NCBI GenBank assembly: GCA_001725155.1
Contig: MEFP01000023.1
Span: 1-47,347 of the forward strand
Reading direction: 5' to 3'
Length of the DNA: 47,347 nucleotides
Source of the DNA: Lysobacteraceae bacterium SCN 69-320
GTDB taxonomy: Bacteria > Pseudomonadota > Gammaproteobacteria > Xanthomonadales > Rhodanobacteraceae
Within the stretch, counting starts at the first letter, position 1. Every line of letters starts with the position of its first letter. Below, in pieces: positions 6,242-47,347 of this stretch. The notes below the pieces were generated by a model. That model saw only the letters and a list, made by a program, of their open reading frames with translations. It made no database searches and was not told the DNA's origin. The translations under genes and the position numbers were made by a program.

Positions 6242-8098
6242 TCAGTTGTCGTAGATACGCACGAGACGCGACGTAGGCGCGAACGTGATTGCCGGTGCCG
6301 GGCTGCCGAGTGTGAGGTTCTCCAGCACATAGCCGCGGCCGCCGGCATAGCGCACGCGTTCCCAGCCGCGGCGCTGGCTGCCGGAATTGTTGGCGAACAA
6401 CAGTCCGCCGCCGGCGGGCGCCGATGCGTAGCTCCAGCTGCCCCAACTGGGCGCATCCAGCCGGTCGAGGCGGCCACCGGGCTGCATGATCCAGCCGAAT
6501 GGCCAGCAGATCGGATCGCTCGTAAGCCGGTCGAGATCGCCGTAGGGCGTGCTGCAGAAATCGCCGTTGATGCGCGACTGGTAGCCGGTCGGCGGTGCGG
6601 CCGGACTCCAGCCGCTGGCCTGCGCCGGCAGCAGCAGGCCGACCAGATAGATGTCCCGGGTTGCGTCCTGCATGCGCATGACGCTGCGCCAGACGCCGGG
6701 CTCTTCCTCGTTGACGAACTGCAGCGTCGCCTGCGTCGTGCCGTACTGCAGGTTCACCAGGCCGGTGCCGGCCGCGCTCCAGCTGAAGCTGCGCGCGCGG
6801 CGCCGCGTGGTGCCGGTACCCGCGCCGAAATCGTGGATGTCGTAGCCGTAGCGGCCCTCGGCGCTGGCGTTCGCGGCGCCGAGATCTTCGGGCAGGGACA
6901 GCACGAAGCTGCCGCCCGTCAAGGTCGGAACCGCGGAACTGATCAGGGCCGGCAGCGGCTCGCCGGCCGTGTCCGCCGGGAGGACTGGCAGCGCGGCCTG
7001 ATGGCGCGTGGGGATTTCCGGATTGTCGGGATAGCGATAGCGCATCGCGAAAGACACCGCGTGGCGCGTGACCCCGCCGGGGCCGTAGCTGGGGCGCAAT
7101 GCGAGAGCCATGTTCTCGTAGAGCACGCGTACCTGATTGCCGCCGACGAGGTCATAGAAAGTCTGGCTGCTCAGCGGCTGGCCGTCGCTGCGCGCCAGCG
7201 TGTAGCCGCCGCTGCCGTCGGCCGTCACCGTGACGGCGGTAGGCTGGATTGCGCCGGTGTAGACACTGCCGCTGCTGCCTTGCAGGCGGTACGCAAGCAC
7301 GTATTCCTGACTGGAGCCGAGCACGCTGCTGTAGGCCGAGTAGGGCAGATAGGTGACGGCATTGGCCAGCGCCGCGGTCGGCACGGCGGCGGCGTCCTGC
7401 GGCAGGGTCAGCGCAACCGCGCAATAGGCCGAGTCGGCCGGCGTCGTGCAGGTCGTCGTGTTGAGCGCGTCGACCGCCGCATACAGCGCCTGGGCCGATG
7501 CGGGCGCGAGCACGGCCGCGAAGGTGTTCGTCGCGCCCGCCGGCAGCGCCAGTTCGCCGCGGGCGATCAGGGCCAGGCCGTAGACGAGATATGGCTTCGG
7601 TGTCGAGGCGCGCGCGGCGCGCTCGAATACGGCGCGATCGGTGATCCGCGTGAAACCTGCATGGCCGCGCAGCGCGGCGTTGACGGCCGTGCTGTAAGGC
7701 CCCAGATGCGCGAAGGCTTCCTGGCTCTCGTCGACGCCGCTGCTGCTGCCGAGGTTCTGCAGCCGCGACAGCGGTCCGAGCGCCCCGGCCCAGACTTCGT
7801 GGGCGCGCGCGTCGCGACCGTAGCCGACGAGGTCGACCAGCGGGTCGCCGGCGAGGTAACGCTGTTCGAGATGCACGCGGTAGCGGCCGTCGGCGCCGGA
7901 CTGGGTGGTCGCGACGTAGCTGCCTGCGAAGGCCTCGATGGTTGCGCCGGCCAGCGGCGCCGGATAGCCGATGCGGCCGCTGACGACGAAGGCGGGTTCC
8001 ACGCCGCTGTGGAAGATCCGGTCGCCAGGAGTCTGCGCCCGGGACGGCGGCGACAGCAGGGCGCTCCCCAACAGCAGTACGGCGATGGCTCGACGCAT
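6242..8098 (-). CDS. Secreted protein of unknown function with N-terminal carboxypeptidase-regulatory-like module
   Basis: The 618-aa protein begins with a signal peptide (MRRAIAVLLLGSALLSPPSRAQ). Residues about 30-85 look like a CarboxypepD_reg/Ig-like surface module (SGRIGYPAPLAGATIEAF then GADGRYRVHLE). The remainder is rich in short beta strands, Gly, Ser and Tyr, with no catalytic motif I can name. The ATG at 8098 was preferred over upstream codons because GGAGAG precedes it at good spacing and the signal peptide starts there. The C-terminus ends normally with a TGA, and no sorting signal was seen. I infer an extracellular or outer-surface protein. Neighbours give no functional hint. Confidence 0.7.
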   Translation of the reverse strand: MRRAIAVLLLGSALLSPPSRAQTPGDRIFHSGVEPAFVVSGRIGYPAPLAGATIEAFAGSYVATTQSGADGRYRVHLEQRYLAGDPLVDLVGYGRDARAHEVWAGALGPLSRLQNLGSSSGVDESQEAFAHLGPYSTAVNAALRGHAGFTRITDRAVFERAARASTPKPYLVYGLALIARGELALPAGATNTFAAVLAPASAQALYAAVDALNTTTCTTPADSAYCAVALTLPQDAAAVPTAALANAVTYLPYSAYSSVLGSSQEYVLAYRLQGSSGSVYTGAIQPTAVTVTADGSGGYTLARSDGQPLSSQTFYDLVGGNQVRVLYENMALALRPSYGPGGVTRHAVSFAMRYRYPDNPEIPTRHQAALPVLPADTAGEPLPALISSAVPTLTGGSFVLSLPEDLGAANASAEGRYGYDIHDFGAGTGTTRRRARSFSWSAAGTGLVNLQYGTTQATLQFVNEEEPGVWRSVMRMQDATRDIYLVGLLLPAQASGWSPAAPPTGYQSRINGDFCSTPYGDLDRLTSDPICWPFGWIMQPGGRLDRLDAPSWGSWSYASAPAGGGLLFANNSGSQRRGWERVRYAGGRGYVLENLTLGSPAPAITFAPTSRLVRIYDN

Positions 8099-8240
8099 GG
8101 ATCTCTCCGTCGCTACGGGCAATCACCAGCTGTTGCGTCAGTGCGGGGAAACTCTCAGGCGCCGGTCAGTCTTCGCCGGTGATGCGGTAGCACCAGACGG
8201 TGGCGCTGACCGGTGCATCGCAGCGCGCCGATCCGATGCA

Positions 8241-40256: not shown

Positions 40257-40567
40257 GACGACTCCGCGCGGCGGCCCGACCAGCGCTTGAGCCTGCCGCG
40301 CTGCGTCATGCAGCGGACACCCGTTCGCGAGTGTAGCGGGCGGCGTCGCGGCAGGCGATAGCGCACTGAAATCGTGCCTGACCGCGTTCGGAGGGCAAGG
40401 CCTCTGTCCAGGTGCTGTCTGCGGGCGATGACGCATGACCGGTTTCGCAAGCGCGATGCGCAGCATTCGACAGTCGAAGCTCAGTTGCTGAACCGGGCCT
40501 GCTTTGTGTGCGCGCTGTACGCGTACGGACACGAACCAGCGCACCTACGCCGCCGGCGGGCTCCCTG
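40257..40567. other. Intergenic region upstream of nhaA
   Basis: Divergent spacer that presumably holds the nhaA promoter. I saw no recognisable operator, RNA gene or repeat. Confidence 0.35.
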
Positions 40568-41134: not shown

Positions 41135-41224
41135 AAAGGCGCCACGGACTGGAACAGGGGGCGACAGAGAGAATCAGAAGTCGAGCGAGGCTCTGGTGGA
41201 ACCGCGCAGGTGCATGATCTGGAT

Positions 41225-41270
41225 GGTGGCCGGGGACGGAATCGAACCGCCGACACGGGGATTTTCAAGA
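41225..41270 (-). tRNA. 3' half of tRNA-Phe (GAA), probable island attachment site
   Basis: Read on the minus strand, the segment starts at TTGAAAATCCCCGTGTC (anticodon loop with GAA and 3' anticodon stem). A T-arm follows with GGCGG / TTCGATT / CCGTC, then acceptor strand CCCGGCC and ACCA. The 5' half is missing: no GGGGA anticodon stem or D-arm lies upstream (41271-41300). This is a truncated tRNA-Phe, as left by site-specific integration into a tRNA gene. An integrase gene begins 183 bp away. The intact tRNA copy should lie beyond the right edge. Confidence 0.8.
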
Positions 41271-41452
41271 GCTGTACCAGCTGCCCAGAGGCACGACTCA
41301 GATTGGTCGTTGCAATAAAAACAACGTCTTGCACTCGTTTCGTATCGCACCAGGCCGCAGCAAACCGCAGCTGACTGCAGGTTTCAGGGAGCCACAGGGG
41401 AGCCACAAACTCGGGTAGGCTTCCGCCAGCGCCAACGGCCAGGAAGCCGCCC

Positions 41453-43072
41453 ATGTCCACGTCCGTACACCTGGACCTCACCCCGAAGATTCTCGATTCG
41501 TTGCGTTTCGACGTGATGCCGGACGAGCGCGGCAAGTTCGCCAATCCCACGCCCCCCGGCACGCGAGAGTGGGTCGTACGCGACCTGGGCGTCCGAGGCT
41601 TGCTCCTCCGCCTGACGCCACGCACCACGACGTGGTACGTCCAGCGGAAGGTGGCGGGGGCGCCGATGAAGCGGGCCATGGGCCACTGGTGGAGCGCCGA
41701 CGGAGGCTACCGGCGCCTGTCCCTCACCGACGCCCGCAAGCGCGCGAAAATCTGGCTCGGGCTCATGGAGCAGGGCATCGACCCGTTGGTCGAGCGGAAG
41801 AAGCGCGAACGGTCGGCGCAGGCGGAGCGGGCCCGCGACGGCCTTACTCTGGCGGTCGCGTTCGCCGAATACGCCGAAGCCCGGGCGCGCAAGGCGAAGG
41901 CCAGCACGACCACCGACCGAGCCAAGGTACCCAAATGGATGGCGGGGGCGCCGCTGTGGGCCATGTCCCTGGCGGACATCAACGAGGCGGCCGTGGAAGC
42001 CACCTTCGGCCCGATGCTGCGTGCCACGCTGCACAAGACCAAGGCGCCGGCGTGGGGGCCGCGGTCGTTGAGCCACGGCACGCTCTCGAAACTCTACGCC
42101 TACTGTTCGGCCGCCTACGCGCGGTCGGCGCCGAAGGCCGGGTTGCCCACCGGCCGCGGCGTCGGGCCGTTCGCCGCGTGGCGGGCCGACCAGCCGTGGC
42201 CGGCCGCGGTTCGGCGGAGCACCTACCTATCCACGGGTTCGGACGTCGGGCAGAACTGGCTGTGCGAACTCGTGAAGGCCCAGCAGCGCGCCCACGACCC
42301 GAAGATTCTGTTGGACCGCCCCGACCCGCGCGGCGAAGGCCTCAAGCCGCACGCGAGCGTGCTGGTCGACTTCTTTCTGTGCGTGCTGCTGTGGGGTTCC
42401 CGCAAGCAGGAAACGGCGCGGCTCCAGTGGAAGGACGTGGACTTCGACCGCAACTTGCTCGTCTTTCCCGGAGCCATCACGAAATCCGGCAAGGACGGCG
42501 TGGCGCCGCTAACCCCTTGGGCGCGAGAAATCCTCGAAGCACGCCGAGCCGCCAACGACCGCTGGCGTCCGGAAGACGTCAGTCAGTGGGTGTTCCCGTC
42601 GCGCCAGCACGGCAAGCCGTTGGCCAACGCGCGTTCCGTGCTGGTGGCGTTGAAAGAGCAGACGGGTTTGTGGATTACGGCGCACGACCTCCGGCGGACG
42701 ATGGCCACCGACCTGGGACGAGTCCGCGTCCCCGTTGAGGAGTTGGGCCGTCTGCTCGTGGTCGGCGCGGCGCTGAACCACGCGCGCGGTGCCACGGGGG
42801 CGGTCCCCAGCAACGCGACCGAGGGATACATCCAGGAGCAAGCGGAGCTGCTGCGGCCGCACTACCTGGTTCGGGAGAATCGCTTGCGGAAACTGGCGGG
42901 CTTGCCGCCGCTGCAGGCCGATGCGCCCGCACCTGAGGCCGGAACCGGCAAGCAAGCAGCATCGGTGGAGGGTCTGGACTTCGATGCGTTGCTTCGCCTC
43001 ATCGAGGATGACGATGGGGCCGCGCAGAAGGTGTTGGAGGCGCTGTTGCGAAGGAAGACAGCACGCGCGTAG
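41453..43072 (+). CDS. Tyrosine-type site-specific integrase
   Basis: The 539-aa protein catalyses integration and excision of the island. The catalytic domain shows the first Arg in LWGSRKQETARLQW (about 317), the HDLRRT box (H411, R414), and nucleophile Tyr459 in ATEGYIQEQ. The N-terminal 110 residues contain a DUF4102-like start (DLGVRGLLLRLTPRTTTWYVQRK, RLSLTDARKRAKIWLGLMEQG), typical of P4-type integrases that use tRNA 3' ends. It sits next to the tRNA-Phe fragment, reading away from it. The N-terminus at 41453 follows the usual family length. Confidence 0.93.
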   Translation: MSTSVHLDLTPKILDSLRFDVMPDERGKFANPTPPGTREWVVRDLGVRGLLLRLTPRTTTWYVQRKVAGAPMKRAMGHWWSADGGYRRLSLTDARKRAKIWLGLMEQGIDPLVERKKRERSAQAERARDGLTLAVAFAEYAEARARKAKASTTTDRAKVPKWMAGAPLWAMSLADINEAAVEATFGPMLRATLHKTKAPAWGPRSLSHGTLSKLYAYCSAAYARSAPKAGLPTGRGVGPFAAWRADQPWPAAVRRSTYLSTGSDVGQNWLCELVKAQQRAHDPKILLDRPDPRGEGLKPHASVLVDFFLCVLLWGSRKQETARLQWKDVDFDRNLLVFPGAITKSGKDGVAPLTPWAREILEARRAANDRWRPEDVSQWVFPSRQHGKPLANARSVLVALKEQTGLWITAHDLRRTMATDLGRVRVPVEELGRLLVVGAALNHARGATGAVPSNATEGYIQEQAELLRPHYLVRENRLRKLAGLPPLQADAPAPEAGTGKQAASVEGLDFDALLRLIEDDDGAAQKVLEALLRRKTARA

Positions 43073-43249: not shown

Positions 43250-43870
43250 TTATTCTGATTTGAGCCACCAACTTCCAGTGGTCCGAGCGTTCAGTTCCAA
43301 TCCGGGAAACGTCAGCGCTAAGAAATCGGCCAGTGCTTCAATGAATCGTCCCATCTCGACAAGGTCGAGCTCATACCCATTGAGTAGACAATACCTTCCG
43401 TCCTGAGACGTAAAAGGAATGTGTGGTCCTCCATTTGTCTTTCCACCGATGATTTTCTCGTCGATATGTTGACTTTCATCCCTAAAACTTTTTACCGCAT
43501 TTATGGTGCTTTTCCATTGTGCCAAAAATGCCTTGATGTTGGGCGGAGGTGGATTCATCGACTTCAACGCTTTGATGCTCTTTATGGCAATTGCAAGGTC
43601 GCCAATGCAGTCGTCGATGGCCGCCGGAAACTCCAGAATGGGCAACCACTGTCCATTTGGCGGTTCCCGGCTCCAGCGCGCACGCTCGTCAATCTGCGCA
43701 AGGACCAGATTTCTGGCTTCGCTGTAATGTCGGGCGGCTTTCACCAGCCGAAAGACCGCTATCTTCCTGAGTCCTTCGTATCGAACATCCGCATGAGATG
43801 CCTGTCCGAGCACGGATTCCAGAAATGCAACGGAATTCAGCGTGTTGAATGGGCGCTGCAAAGCAGGCAT
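43250..43870 (-). CDS. HEPN-like protein of the island, unknown
   Basis: The 206-aa protein is mostly helical. It has R130-x4-H135 (RDESQH), the Rx4-6H pattern of HEPN ribonucleases, after a long helix DDCIGDLAIAIKSIKALKS. The family call rests on this motif and helix content only. Composition is lower in GC than the chromosome to the left, in keeping with an acquired gene. A TTG start at 43933 with AGGAG nearby, or CTG a few codons on, could add about 20 residues. No obvious antitoxin partner is adjacent, though the gene lies between the integrase and the DUF3883 gene. Confidence 0.6.
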   Translation of the reverse strand: MPALQRPFNTLNSVAFLESVLGQASHADVRYEGLRKIAVFRLVKAARHYSEARNLVLAQIDERARWSREPPNGQWLPILEFPAAIDDCIGDLAIAIKSIKALKSMNPPPPNIKAFLAQWKSTINAVKSFRDESQHIDEKIIGGKTNGGPHIPFTSQDGRYCLLNGYELDLVEMGRFIEALADFLALTFPGLELNARTTGSWWLKSE

Positions 43871-44074
43871 CTGGCATTGGTCTGGCAGCCCGATTGGCCT
43901 CGGCGAACTCGGCGGATGCGGTTTCAGAGTCAATCTCCTACAACGTGTCGCGGTTCCGACGATTGCATCATCGTCGTCGGCTATTGCCGAGGGTGAGCGA
44001 ACGAGCTTGGCTCGGCGTGTTTTTCCGGCGCTCGATTGCTGCTGGAGGGGAAAATGCGGAGCACGGAACGTCTT

Positions 44075-44971
44075 TCAATCCTGTCGGTCCACTGGCAGCA
44101 CCGCGTGAAAAAGCTTTGGCGTCATCGCGCCTCCCTGTTCGAGGGCTAGAGCGGGATTACGTACGACGAAGACTCTTCCTGTCTTGAGCGATTTCTCCAG
44201 TTCGACCAAATACAGAAACGCCTCGTTTCCGTAGCGCTTCATCGTATTGAGTTCGCCTTGGGACAGGTAGAAGCCGCTCTCGATGTCCCCGGTCGTTGCT
44301 TTCACCTCGATGTAGCGGGTGCCCTGGCTGGATACACTCCGGATGTCGTAGCCGGAATCCACGAACTTTGCTGCTTCGTGGACGACTCTGAACCCAGGTT
44401 CTACCTTGGCATCGTCTTTCAGCCTTTTTCTTTCGAATGCCAAGGCCACCTTCTCTCCGGCCTTTCCGATTTTCTTTTGTTGGCGAAGGCGTTCTTCGAG
44501 GGCCTCCACCGTCATCACCGGCTTCCTGCGTCGCCGACCCGGCCCCTTCCCGGAGGATTCGGATGCTTCCGGCTGGTCGATGGCGGCGCCGTCGAGTTCC
44601 AGAACGTGGAGGTGGTCCCGATTGAATCCTCCGGGCGGCAGGCTGTCGAGCCAATTCAGCAGCGCCGCGCGCGTGCGCGCGCTGACCTTGTCCAGTTCGA
44701 TGAACTTTTTCCCCGTTATCGTCTGAATTCGTTTCCGCGTCGCGCCGCCGGGACGAATCTTGTGAACGCGCTTGCCGCGGTAGTCCGCCAAGCGGAGACC
44801 GGCGTACGCGCAGAACTTTGAAAGGCCGAAGTAATCCTTGCCGCCCTCTCGCAGATGGACGAAATGCCTTGGCACGGTGCCGAGCGCGTCGAGCTGGAGG
44901 CGCGGGTCGCTCCGCGCAAACGTCCGAACGGATTGGGCGAGTTCAACGTCGTTTCTGCACAGTTGCGCCAT
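44075..44971 (-). CDS. DUF3883 domain protein (nuclease-like fold)
   Basis: The 298-aa protein has an N-terminal half of unknown type (with FGLSKFCAYAGLRLADYRG) and a C-terminal DUF3883 domain from about residue 165: GKAGEKVALAFER, AAKFVDSGYDIRSVSSQGTRYIEVKATTGD, FYLSQGELNTMKRYG, FLYLVE. The D...E-x-K arrangement (GYDI then YIEVKAT) matches the PD-(D/E)xK nuclease core, and DUF3883 is common in restriction and defence proteins. A linker rich in Lys/Arg (RRRRKP) separates the halves. The ATG at 44971 has GAGAGAA upstream. It diverges from the three-gene operon to the right. Confidence 0.82.
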   Translation of the reverse strand: MAQLCRNDVELAQSVRTFARSDPRLQLDALGTVPRHFVHLREGGKDYFGLSKFCAYAGLRLADYRGKRVHKIRPGGATRKRIQTITGKKFIELDKVSARTRAALLNWLDSLPPGGFNRDHLHVLELDGAAIDQPEASESSGKGPGRRRRKPVMTVEALEERLRQQKKIGKAGEKVALAFERKRLKDDAKVEPGFRVVHEAAKFVDSGYDIRSVSSQGTRYIEVKATTGDIESGFYLSQGELNTMKRYGNEAFLYLVELEKSLKTGRVFVVRNPALALEQGGAMTPKLFHAVLPVDRQD

Positions 44972-45142
44972 GAAGTTCTCTCGTTCGCCGACCGCCCGCG
45001 TTCGGTGCTCTGGTTTCTGAATTGAACCGGCCGCTCGTGTCAAGCCGCTGACTGCACCGCCAGTCGTCGCTGCCAGCGACGGTGGCGTGGGTGTTCCAAC
45101 CGTTGTCTGCGGCCACCGCGACCAATCTCGCAGCGGTGGCGC

Positions 45143-45191
45143 TTGACACCAAGCCGTCGTGAGCTCAGCATTCTCACTGCGATTGGTGAGA
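45143..45191 (+). promoter_or_regulatory. Promoter and dyad before the three-gene operon
   Basis: TTGACA (45143-45148) is a good -35; the -10 is weak. A perfect dyad TCTCAC-N8-GTGAGA (45172-45191) overlaps the ribosome binding site GGTGAG seven bases before the ATG at 45198. It could be an operator or a hairpin that hides the ribosome site. Confidence 0.55.
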
Positions 45192-45197
45192 TATGTC

Positions 45198-45761
45198 ATG
45201 ATCTATTCCATCAGGCGGTTGGCGAACACCGAGGTTGCGGCGGGGGCTCAGGCTGGTCGGCGGGTGTTCGTCGCCCTGGTGTCGGCCGTGTCGCAGCCCT
45301 CAGAGCCCCAGCCGGTGTTCTTGGACTTCAAAGGGATTGAGGCGGCGACGGGTTCGTTCCTCCGCGAATGCGTGTTTGCTTTCCGCGACCACTGCAGGCA
45401 CGCGATGGAAAACGCCTACCCGGTGGTGGCCAATGCCACAGCCGTGGTCGTTGAGGAGCTGGCCTTCTACGCCAAGAGTCAGGCAGATGCGGTGTGGCAC
45501 TGCGAGCTGTCGGAGCATGGACGGGTGGGTTCTCCCAACCTCATCGGGCGGGACAACCTTGAGGCGGGCCAGCAGCAGGCATTGAAGTGGGTGGACGAGT
45601 TGCCGGAGGCCACGGCACCCGCCATGACCCAGCAATCCGGACAGGCGGTAGGCGCCACCGCCTGGAACAACCGCCTTTCGGCGCTGGCCGCCAAGGGGCT
45701 CATCATGGAGCAGCGGCGCGGCAAGACCAAAATCTTTCGTCCGGTATTGGGAGCTTCCTGA
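45198..45761 (+). CDS. STAS-like (DUF4325-type) protein with C-terminal winged helix
   Basis: The 187-aa protein has a STAS-like core (VFVALVSAV, then PVFLDFKGIEAATGSFLREC, residues about 22-58), as in DUF4325 proteins, and a C-terminal segment AWNNRLSALAAKGLIMEQRRGKTKIFRP that looks like a winged helix. STAS-like proteins usually act as switches with anti-sigma-like ATPases; none is seen here. Gene ends overlap the next start by one base (TGATG). The start could be upstream (GTG 45159), but ATG 45198 places the fold and a GGTGAG site best. It is the first gene of a three-gene unit. Confidence 0.7.
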   Translation: MIYSIRRLANTEVAAGAQAGRRVFVALVSAVSQPSEPQPVFLDFKGIEAATGSFLRECVFAFRDHCRHAMENAYPVVANATAVVVEELAFYAKSQADAVWHCELSEHGRVGSPNLIGRDNLEAGQQQALKWVDELPEATAPAMTQQSGQAVGATAWNNRLSALAAKGLIMEQRRGKTKIFRPVLGAS

Positions 45762-46111
45762 TGGGACTGGATTACATCCGCACCACGCGGGGCAAGCCCT
45801 GGCGCAAACAGTGGGCGCAGGGCTTGAACTTGATGAACGAGCCCACGCTGTTCGACATCGCGTTCAACACGCGGCGGCGGACCGTTTCTGCATTCGTTGA
45901 AGTCGAGAATCCGCCCGCTAACGGCGCCGAACTCTTGCTGGAGCTGATTGGCTCCGATGCGTTCGTCTTTGACGGCCAGCGCCGCGTCGCGAGGGTGGAG
46001 AACCTCCCCGATGACGTGCTGGTGTTGCTGCATCGTACCGACAACATCGCCCTTGCCACGGTGGAACACGTCAGCTTGTTCGGCGACATGATGGAGCTGT
46101 CCCTGAAATGA
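45761..46111 (+). CDS. 116-aa protein of unknown function in the island operon
   Basis: The protein starts MGLDYIRTTRGKPWRKQWAQGLN, a basic N-terminus, then alternating strands and ends HVSLFGDMMELSLK. It has no Cys and no recognised motif. It is overlapped on both sides: one base with the STAS-like gene and ATGA (46108-46111) with the Cys-rich gene. Tight coupling suggests a subunit or chaperone of the next protein. I do not recognise the family. Confidence 0.7.
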   Translation: MGLDYIRTTRGKPWRKQWAQGLNLMNEPTLFDIAFNTRRRTVSAFVEVENPPANGAELLLELIGSDAFVFDGQRRVARVENLPDDVLVLLHRTDNIALATVEHVSLFGDMMELSLK

Positions 46112-47286
46112 TCGCCCAACTTCCGAACGTCGTCCTCCTGCCGGACGGACCGACCTGGGACGATTCGCGTGCGAACCCCCTGGCGCTCGGTTGCCGCACC
46201 TGTCCCGATTTCGCCGCTTGCGGAGGGCTCCACACGGCCGATGCCGCCTTCGATTGCGGCGATCGGTGCAAGTGCGCCGACCCGTCGGCTTGCGACGTGG
46301 TGTGCCGCAAGAAGCCAGCCCGGTTCCGTGCTCAGCGCTTGGAGATCGGTGGGTTCTCGCTCGACAACGTCGAGCGCGCGCCGGTGTTGCCACACCCCGC
46401 CTTTCCGCTGGTTGTGCCGCTCATTGACCACGGCTATAGGCGAACGGGCACGCTCAAAGAAAGCTTTGTGGCCGTTCCGCTCTATCGGCTTTACAACAAA
46501 GGCACGGGCATCCCGTTCTTCTCCAATAAGGCGGAGGTGTGCGCGCATTTTCGCATTTCCCTCGATGCGACCATCATCGCGTCGGGCGTGGCCCGGGATT
46601 TCCGCATCGAACCCTGGTGGGGCTTTTCGACCCCCGAGTTCCTGAAGCAACTGAGCTCGTTGGGAATCGCGCTGTTCACCGTGCCCAATTTCAGTGTGTT
46701 CAGCGACGTGCCGCGGACCGACAACCTTCACGCCATCAAGCGCATCGGGCTGTCGTATGCGGCCATGGTCAACGCCGGCTTGCCGACGGCCCTTCATTTG
46801 AACGCCCGCACGGAACGGGACTACGCCAACTGGCTGAAGTTCATTCGGGAGCGGCAAGAGGTCCAGGCCGTCGCTTTTGAGTTCGGAACCGGCGCGGGAA
46901 GCGAAGGGCGGATCGACTGGCACATTGCGCAACTGTGTGCACTGGCCGATGGGGTAGGTCGCCCGTTGATCCTGGTGCTTCGTGGGGGGATACGTCGCCT
47001 CGTACAGTTGCACGCGCACTTTTCCCGCGTGGTAGTCCTCGACACCATGCCTTTCGCGAAGACCCGCCAGCGCCAACGCGCGGTGGTGAAGGACACGGGA
47101 TTTCTGGCTTGGCCGTCCGCCGCCGAAGAATTCGGCCGCGGCAAACCTTTGGACGCTCTGCTTGCGCACAACATCGAGCTGTCCCGCCGCGCCATCATCG
47201 ACCCGCCCGAGCCGCTGTACCACTCACGTGCTATTGCGGGAGTCCGGGTGAACCGCCCCGAGAATCCTGGAGGCTCCGGATTGTGA
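46108..47286 (+). CDS. Cys-rich, DUF4417-like (TIM-barrel-like) protein
   Basis: The 392-aa protein carries eight Cys between residues 29 and 66 (CRTC, C38, C50, C54, C56, C62, C66), suited to a metal cluster or zinc. The middle (about 145-330) has alternating strands and helices, with VPNFSVFSDVPRTDN, LPTALHLNARTERDYANW and AFEFGTGAG, faintly like DUF4417 of phage and island genes. The C-terminal part is Arg-rich (TRQRQRAVVKDTG). Radical-SAM type CxxxCxxC is not seen. The assignment is weak. It ends the three-gene operon and is followed by a hairpin. Confidence 0.6.
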   Translation: MIAQLPNVVLLPDGPTWDDSRANPLALGCRTCPDFAACGGLHTADAAFDCGDRCKCADPSACDVVCRKKPARFRAQRLEIGGFSLDNVERAPVLPHPAFPLVVPLIDHGYRRTGTLKESFVAVPLYRLYNKGTGIPFFSNKAEVCAHFRISLDATIIASGVARDFRIEPWWGFSTPEFLKQLSSLGIALFTVPNFSVFSDVPRTDNLHAIKRIGLSYAAMVNAGLPTALHLNARTERDYANWLKFIRERQEVQAVAFEFGTGAGSEGRIDWHIAQLCALADGVGRPLILVLRGGIRRLVQLHAHFSRVVVLDTMPFAKTRQRQRAVVKDTGFLAWPSAAEEFGRGKPLDALLAHNIELSRRAIIDPPEPLYHSRAIAGVRVNRPENPGGSGL

Positions 47287-47310
47287 GTCACGCCACCATG
47301 GCGGACTCAC
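47283..47310 (+). terminator. Hairpin overlapping the stop codon of the last gene
   Basis: GTGAGTC (47283-47289, includes the TGA) pairs with GACTCAC (47304-47310), with an inner stem CGCC / GGCG around a five-base loop and a single bulged A. It ends the operon; no T-tract follows within the window. Confidence 0.65.
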
Positions 47311-47347
47311 GGATTGCTGCGTAGTAGCGTGCCTCGGCTTCTGCCGG

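Follow-up and report, generated by a model that had tools for sequence, protein, structure and literature searches.

Close to the end of contig MEFP01000023.1 of Lysobacteraceae bacterium SCN 69-320 (assembly GCA_001725155.1; positions 1 to 47,347, this whole stretch of 47,347 nucleotides being called the window), three overlapping genes are encoded, here called A, B and C. By sequence comparison, the trio is part of a real, recurring four-gene cassette, A-B-C-D, the fourth gene of which (D) is found in relatives. Profile comparisons make A a relative of the repressor CapS, and D a GHKL kinase and relative of CapK. The switch half of the cassette is thus predicted to be a variant of the published CapK/CapS system. 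The output half, B and C, is uncharacterized, and C has a predicted fold like that of tRNA-guanine transglycosylase (TGT). On balance, we lean towards reading A-B-C-D as an immune cassette that is self-contained and switched by stress, with C as its effector.

Recurrence of the cassette

According to the list of open reading frames (ORFs) and the sequence, A extends to 45761, B covers 45761-46111 and C 46108-47286, all on the plus strand. The overlaps are one base (A/B) and four bases (B/C), as already described in a first-pass annotation of the window. That annotation proposed a new module of three genes. A recurring set, often beside defence genes, indeed exists; it has four genes, however, and kinase D had been missed.

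Relatives were gathered through C. A tblastn search of plasmids gave 10 records (eight of them examined). When the C alignment was run against genomes, 44 loci were obtained, and one more came from a viral scan. Every ORF of the 51 loci collected in this way was compared with profiles of A, B, C and D. B and D were each found in 51/51 and A in 50/51; the loci having been chosen through C, with a scan pattern built from trio-bearing loci, this togetherness is valid for the close subfamily. Recurrence in 51 loci places the gene set beyond chance, and it answers with a yes the earlier question of whether the trio occurs outside the window, with defence genes among its flanks. The A-B-C trio recurs in six of the eight plasmid loci. 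In the other two, which hold distant relatives of C (L008 and L009), A, B and D are absent by the profiles used. Neither the window C nor the Streptomyces C had a match in a tblastn search of phages; the viral scan gave one viral contig.

The hosts are Pseudomonadota and Planctomycetota, joined by single assemblies of an acidobacterium and an armatimonadete; both of these are metagenome bins, possibly with misplaced contigs. Across 43 loci, the pairwise identities found for each of the four proteins are correlated with one another (0.92-0.97), although linked genes are expected to correlate anyway. A locus from Acidisphaera (L045, 6465-8886) has B-C-D without a recognizable A. One Xanthobacter autotrophicus genome has two diverged copies of the cassette (L010 and L012).

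The placement of D varies. In 27 loci, D and C are convergent; in 21, D follows downstream in the same direction, and in three it lies upstream. In 26 of the 27 convergent loci, D overlaps C antisense by 42 to 183 bases. A tree of C was computed for 45 loci and the window, leaving out the plasmid loci. The place of D requires two changes on this tree, which is the minimum for three states. The window C groups with 24 other rows, all of them convergent (support 96/90), and one convergent locus (L032) clusters with the two upstream cases rather than with the convergent group. Hypothetical proteins annotated after C, at 7234-8133 in both of the plasmid records L002 and L003, are most likely spurious ORFs antisense to D.

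The predicted switch: genes A and D

Gene A (45198..45761, plus strand) is assigned as a CapS-like repressor with STAS and winged-helix domains, based on family and profile searches and on residue conservation. In a recent paper (Chambers and others, EMBO J 2026, PMC13373217), CapK and CapS are described as a kinase and a repressor that together turn on immune operons in response to DNA damage. The same source reports the CapS structures as PDB 9z71-9z73, of which 9z71 shows the protein of E. roggenkampii and 9z72 that of V. cholerae. Both are matched by a profile built from 44 A proteins, 9z71 at E 0.0027 and 9z72 at E 0.057. For direct comparison, CapS from an E. roggenkampii plasmid (L069), where it lies upstream of a multiubiquitin/ThiF operon, was used as reference. 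It aligns with A over nearly its full length, covering STAS and winged helix-turn-helix (wHTH) (hhalign 93.6%, E 2.2e-7, 158 columns). Ser53 of A (codon 45354-45356) is kept in 44/44 aligned sequences and aligns with the phosphorylated S54 of CapS. DUF4325 (PF14213) matches 14 of 44 A members at E 0.01 (best 2.1e-6), and the window protein (E 0.0042, 17.2 bits) is under the 23-bit cut-off.

The start of A is likely ATG 45198, with GTG 45159 as the alternative. The first-pass annotation had let gene and operon begin at 45143, which is ruled out: the TTG at this position opens a different short ORF in another frame and coincides with the box TTGACA (45143..45148, plus strand), which resembles a -35 element of the A-B-C promoter.

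Seven bases 5' of the A start, a pattern search revealed the operator-like palindrome CTCAC-N8-GTGAG (45173..45190, plus strand), the sole match in 47 kb (0.10 expected; a match in 9/100 shuffles). The general form, YTCAY-N7-10-RTGAG, precedes A in the window as well as in 38 of 50 loci (39/51 regions). In 37 of these 39 regions, the window among them, TTGA lies 26-30 bases 5' of the palindrome. A double repeat of 34-35 bases occurs exactly once in 31 of the 51 loci and always adjoins A; the window does not have it. We predict that the palindrome is an operator, and CapS has been described as binding a palindrome at its own promoter (PMC13373217, in part). In 30 regions upstream of D, the looser pattern was found once and the stricter one in none.

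These data also bear on the idea that the cassette is a regulator only, with B and C helping to sense damage and with a neighbouring defence operon as the output. CapKS does regulate adjacent immune operons, and defence genes are among the neighbours here. However, in the locus sequences analysed, the strong double palindrome occurs solely before A (31/31), and the neighbours differ between plasmid loci while the cassette is constant. Eleven further, weaker palindrome matches lie elsewhere in the 657,509 bases of the same loci. We regard this explanation as improbable.

Gene D is known from the relatives. It matches HATPase_c_2 in 6/6 members at E 1 (best 6.7e-8), with the first member just below the Pfam cut-off. 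Comparison with CapK of the same E. roggenkampii plasmid (L069) gave 96% (E 4e-9) over 136 GHKL columns. All 44 aligned sequences keep E136, N140 and the glycine boxes. N140 is the counterpart of CapK N218, the active-site asparagine that was mutated by Chambers and others (PMC13373217). The PDB sequence search with D gave a histidine kinase at E 0.073. In PADLOC, D proteins match DrmA (8/44, best E 1.1e-5), CARF8 (3/44) and JAB (1/44).

The cassette resembles CapK/CapS in having a STAS-wHTH repressor with a conserved serine, a GHKL partner, a palindrome at its own promoter and a setting of immune genes. It differs in that D lacks an N-terminal helix-turn-helix (HTH) and is located after C, often antisense, in 48/51 loci, and in that the half-site is CTCAC/GTGAG rather than the TTAA of CapS. 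Concerning novelty, the first-pass annotation knew no described system with these parts. The sensing half proves to be a relative of a published switch; C and B remain as the uncharacterized components. Its proposal of a STAS-like DNA-binding protein that controls, or belongs to, a TIM-barrel-like protein was right in direction, A probably controlling the Cys-rich C.

A second known arrangement is VapKSC, which consists of a GHKL kinase without HTH, the STAS antitoxin VapS and the PIN-domain protein VapC in one operon (PMC13373217). The cassette shares with it an HTH-less GHKL kinase, a STAS protein and a further protein in one operon. It may be a toxin-antitoxin system at the protein level, in which A blocks C (or B-C) directly, phosphorylation by D frees the toxin, and the winged helix is for autoregulation only. 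VapS is indeed released by a CapK-like kinase, and overlap of A with B, seen in 43 of 50 loci, is frequent where products act together. On the other hand, A has a wHTH and its similarity to CapS spans almost the entire protein, the palindrome is found at the promoter, the further proteins are two others (B and C), and no PIN domain match was obtained for A, B or C by family searches. We consider this alternative unlikely.

The putative output: genes B and C

Gene C (46108..47286, plus strand) codes for a Cys-rich protein with a predicted TIM-barrel fold like that of TGT and DpdA, based on structure search and conservation. The cluster of eight cysteines detected by the first-pass annotation is present and conserved (45-46 of 46). 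It is N-terminal (residues 29-66; 46192..46305, plus strand) and was confirmed by alignment. The cysteines are residues 29, 32, 38, 50, 54, 56, 62 and 66; seven of them are C in 46/46 aligned sequences, including the window, and C54 in 45/46. The AlphaFold2 model of C shows a barrel (predicted local distance difference test score, pLDDT, 82.0). Metal geometry had been suggested as a check on the cluster; the cysteine region and both ends are of low confidence, so that the model is without a metal site.

With Foldseek, the first four PDB matches of C are bacterial TGT, archaeal TGT, QTRT2 and QTRT1 (probability 1.00, E 2.2e-4 to 6.3e-4). Among viral proteins, queuine ribosyltransferase from Mycobacterium phage Bella96 (E 3.2e-4) and TGT from Achromobacter phage Motura (E 3.8e-3) were matched; many further viral matches are unnamed. 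The model thus suggests that C folds like TGT and phage DpdA, which bears out, at the fold level, an early guess of a TGT-like barrel. Profile comparison does not support homology between C and TGT or DpdA at the sequence level, in a test that is blind also to its control. TGT carries a C-terminal zinc site (CxCxxC is seen in the TGT sequence), while the cysteines of C are N-terminal. D164, N194, H230, E258, R292 and G293 of C are conserved in 45-46 of 46 sequences. The first five are located at strand ends or up to five residues after them in the model, which speaks for an active site in C other than that of TGT.

If C is a DpdA-like enzyme modifying bases of DNA or tRNA, its product may mark self or alter translation under stress, and the cassette would modify rather than kill. 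The TGT/DpdA fold is in favour of this. In addition, a ParB-like gene overlaps the distant C relative on a Streptomyces plasmid (L009, 4565-6987), and three of the phage DpdA genes that were examined are also near ParB-like genes. However, the catalytic motifs of TGT/DpdA (TDSGGF / DSGAF; FDCVMPTR / VDSSSW) were not seen in C by eye, and no gene for 7-deazaguanine synthesis was found in the eight annotated plasmid loci or among the first 25 of 65 Pfam families of the flanks. We hold this explanation to be quite unlikely.

The protein had also been called DUF4417-like, a designation that was not borne out. "DUF4417" is an NCBI label on relatives of C. Membership in Pfam DUF4417 (PF14386) is rejected, with 0/7 members matching at E 1. 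More generally, no credible match to Pfam (window protein and seven members) or NCBIfam (window protein and 46 members, with scattered weak matches) was obtained for C, nor did a PDB sequence search with C give anything credible. A scan of 200 genomes of the phylum for PF14386 gave no match, nor did it in 14 controls, and hence is uninformative. DUF4417 is reported to be fused to ParB-type domains in phages (PMC12704722, in part).

Gene B (45761..46111, plus strand) codes for a protein of 116 amino acids. Its AlphaFold2 model has an N-terminal helix and a small barrel (pLDDT 83.8). Foldseek matches are to Rad5 (probability 1.00 and 0.96) and to isolated HIRAN chains of HLTF (probability 0.98-0.99, E 0.14-0.2). 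We tentatively assign a HIRAN-like fold, as a weak prediction from the model. A PDB sequence search with B gave nothing credible. In Salinibacter (L008), a candidate partner of C resembling B reached 0.5% and is not claimed.

Proposed mechanism

The four-gene linkage, the conservation of kinase and serine, the promoter palindrome, the defence neighbours and the predicted folds point to the following mechanism for a stress-switched immune cassette. A would bind the palindrome over its own promoter and keep A-B-C off. The trigger for D would be a signal of DNA damage or phage attack; for CapK, the activator is single-stranded DNA, with W68 as the residue stacking on it (PMC13373217, in part). 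Activated D would phosphorylate A at Ser53, upon which A would release the promoter. The derepressed operon would then make B, maybe seated on single-stranded DNA ends, and its possible partner C. As a TIM barrel whose eight cysteines would form a metal or Fe-S domain, C would act on nucleic acid by base removal, base exchange or binding. In its fullest form, the idea is a four-gene immune system with an effector of TGT fold, bearing Fe-S or zinc, that removes or exchanges nucleobases; a HIRAN-like binder of single-stranded DNA ends would guide this effector, and a DNA-damage kinase acting with a STAS-wHTH repressor would set it free. In this completeness, the proposal is doubtful, and we offer it tentatively.

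At a number of loci, the cassette is found beside defence genes, which we report as an association. In the flanks, 98 proteins were scanned. These are the nearest long ORFs, some surely spurious, and one protein can count several times. Among the first 25 of 297 PADLOC families are AriA (5), Gabija GajA (4) and AbiEi (4). The first 25 of 65 Pfam families include ResIII (4), OLD-like TOPRIM (4), Mrr (3), SIR2 (2), Piwi (2) and DUF499 (2).

Several observations weigh against the immune-cassette reading or parts of it. The first four PDB matches of C have TM-scores of 0.37-0.46 only, and other TIM barrels are found within a tenfold E-value. C reaches 0.1-0.2% against TGT and DpdA sequence profiles; as the control, TGT against DpdA, reaches 2.6%, this test is blind. 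When positions are assigned by eye from strand order, the aspartate of TDSGGF is L, V, A or I in 46/46 C sequences, and the place of the nucleophile is taken by D (29), E (16) or S (1). For B, the HIRAN matches reach E 0.05-0.2 only, and no Pfam HIRAN model is among the matches of 45 members. D lacks the N-terminal HTH of CapK, and CapK W68 is unpartnered in a shallow alignment of four D proteins with CapK. The palindrome as written is missing in 12 of 50 loci. It exceeds its frequency in shuffled sequences (mean 0.21 of 51 regions, maximum 3), a comparison that is flattered by the pattern having been written after viewing the same sequences. The flank counts have no background control, so that they stand for association and not for enrichment. 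As to the window itself, its C is flagged as a long branch in the tree. A profile search of the assembled source genome gave no D, whereas the same search detected D in 6/6 control genomes.

The words DUF4417, transglycosylase and HIRAN are absent from the main text of PMC13373217. The passages of open-licence literature on DUF4417 that were checked do not describe the A-B-C-D set. A TGT fold tied to CapK/CapS immunity was not found in the open-licence literature, by which absence from print is not shown. The analysis extends the CapK/CapS damage switch to a cassette carrying the same two uncharacterized proteins in 51 loci. If the immune reading is true, C, with its eight cysteines and TGT fold, would be a new type of effector. 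The predicted operator, the kinase and the serine make the switch directly testable.

The truncated copy in the window

The last 99 bases of the window (47249-47347) are found again, at 98.99-100% identity, at three more contig ends in the same genome, and there are diverged copies elsewhere too. The copy on contig C8 sits between both inverted ends of an element that encodes a transposase. Its transposase letters and TGAACCGCCCC terminus lead us to place this insertion sequence (IS) in the IS3 family. In the window, the end of the element (47249..47347, no strand assigned) runs off the contig. It enters C at codon 381. The sequence of C proper stops at 47248 and the final 38 bases are IS, so that the last 12 residues, the stop codon and the hairpin are IS sequence. 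The hairpin over the C stop, reported by the first-pass annotation, does fold (-25.2 kcal/mol, z -2.0, with 6/200 shuffles equally good); as part of the IS, it is not the terminator of the operon.

Counted from the RGG codon of C, the stop of D lies 204-264 bases further on in the 27 convergent loci and the IS junction of the window 268 bases, which puts the IS near the expected end of D. An unassembled D may exist in the source genome. With the end of C lost to the IS and no D found, the window copy is probably a remnant, locked or dead. Among related genomes, C was found in 1/369 of the class and in 1/197 of the family, both times in its own genome only. Since no other of these genomes has it, C is most likely a foreign acquisition.

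Neighbouring genes in the window

Of the island neighbours named in the first-pass annotation, an integrase and a DUF3883 gene were confirmed. The tyrosine integrase of the island (41453..43072, plus strand) matches PF00589 (4e-13). A gene divergent from A and outside of the cassette (44075..45199, minus strand) codes for a NOV_C (NO VEIN C-terminal) domain (PF13020, 1.6e-11), which we take to be the former DUF3883. Its listed start overlaps A, and the real start is probably further in. The NOV_C protein resembles the ends of the PADLOC TmtA, PD-T4-1 and PDC-S36 proteins and is a defence candidate itself. The third neighbour, a protein of 227 amino acids (43250..43933, minus strand), had been labelled HEPN-like, which did not hold: it has no family match in four libraries.

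Beside the integrase, 41220-41290 looks to us like the tail of a tRNA gene, perhaps an attachment site; ARAGORN called no tRNA at this position. An nhaA-I riboswitch is located at 40267-40322 on the minus strand (RF03057, 49.9 bits), upstream of a minus-strand ORF that presumably codes for an NhaA antiporter.

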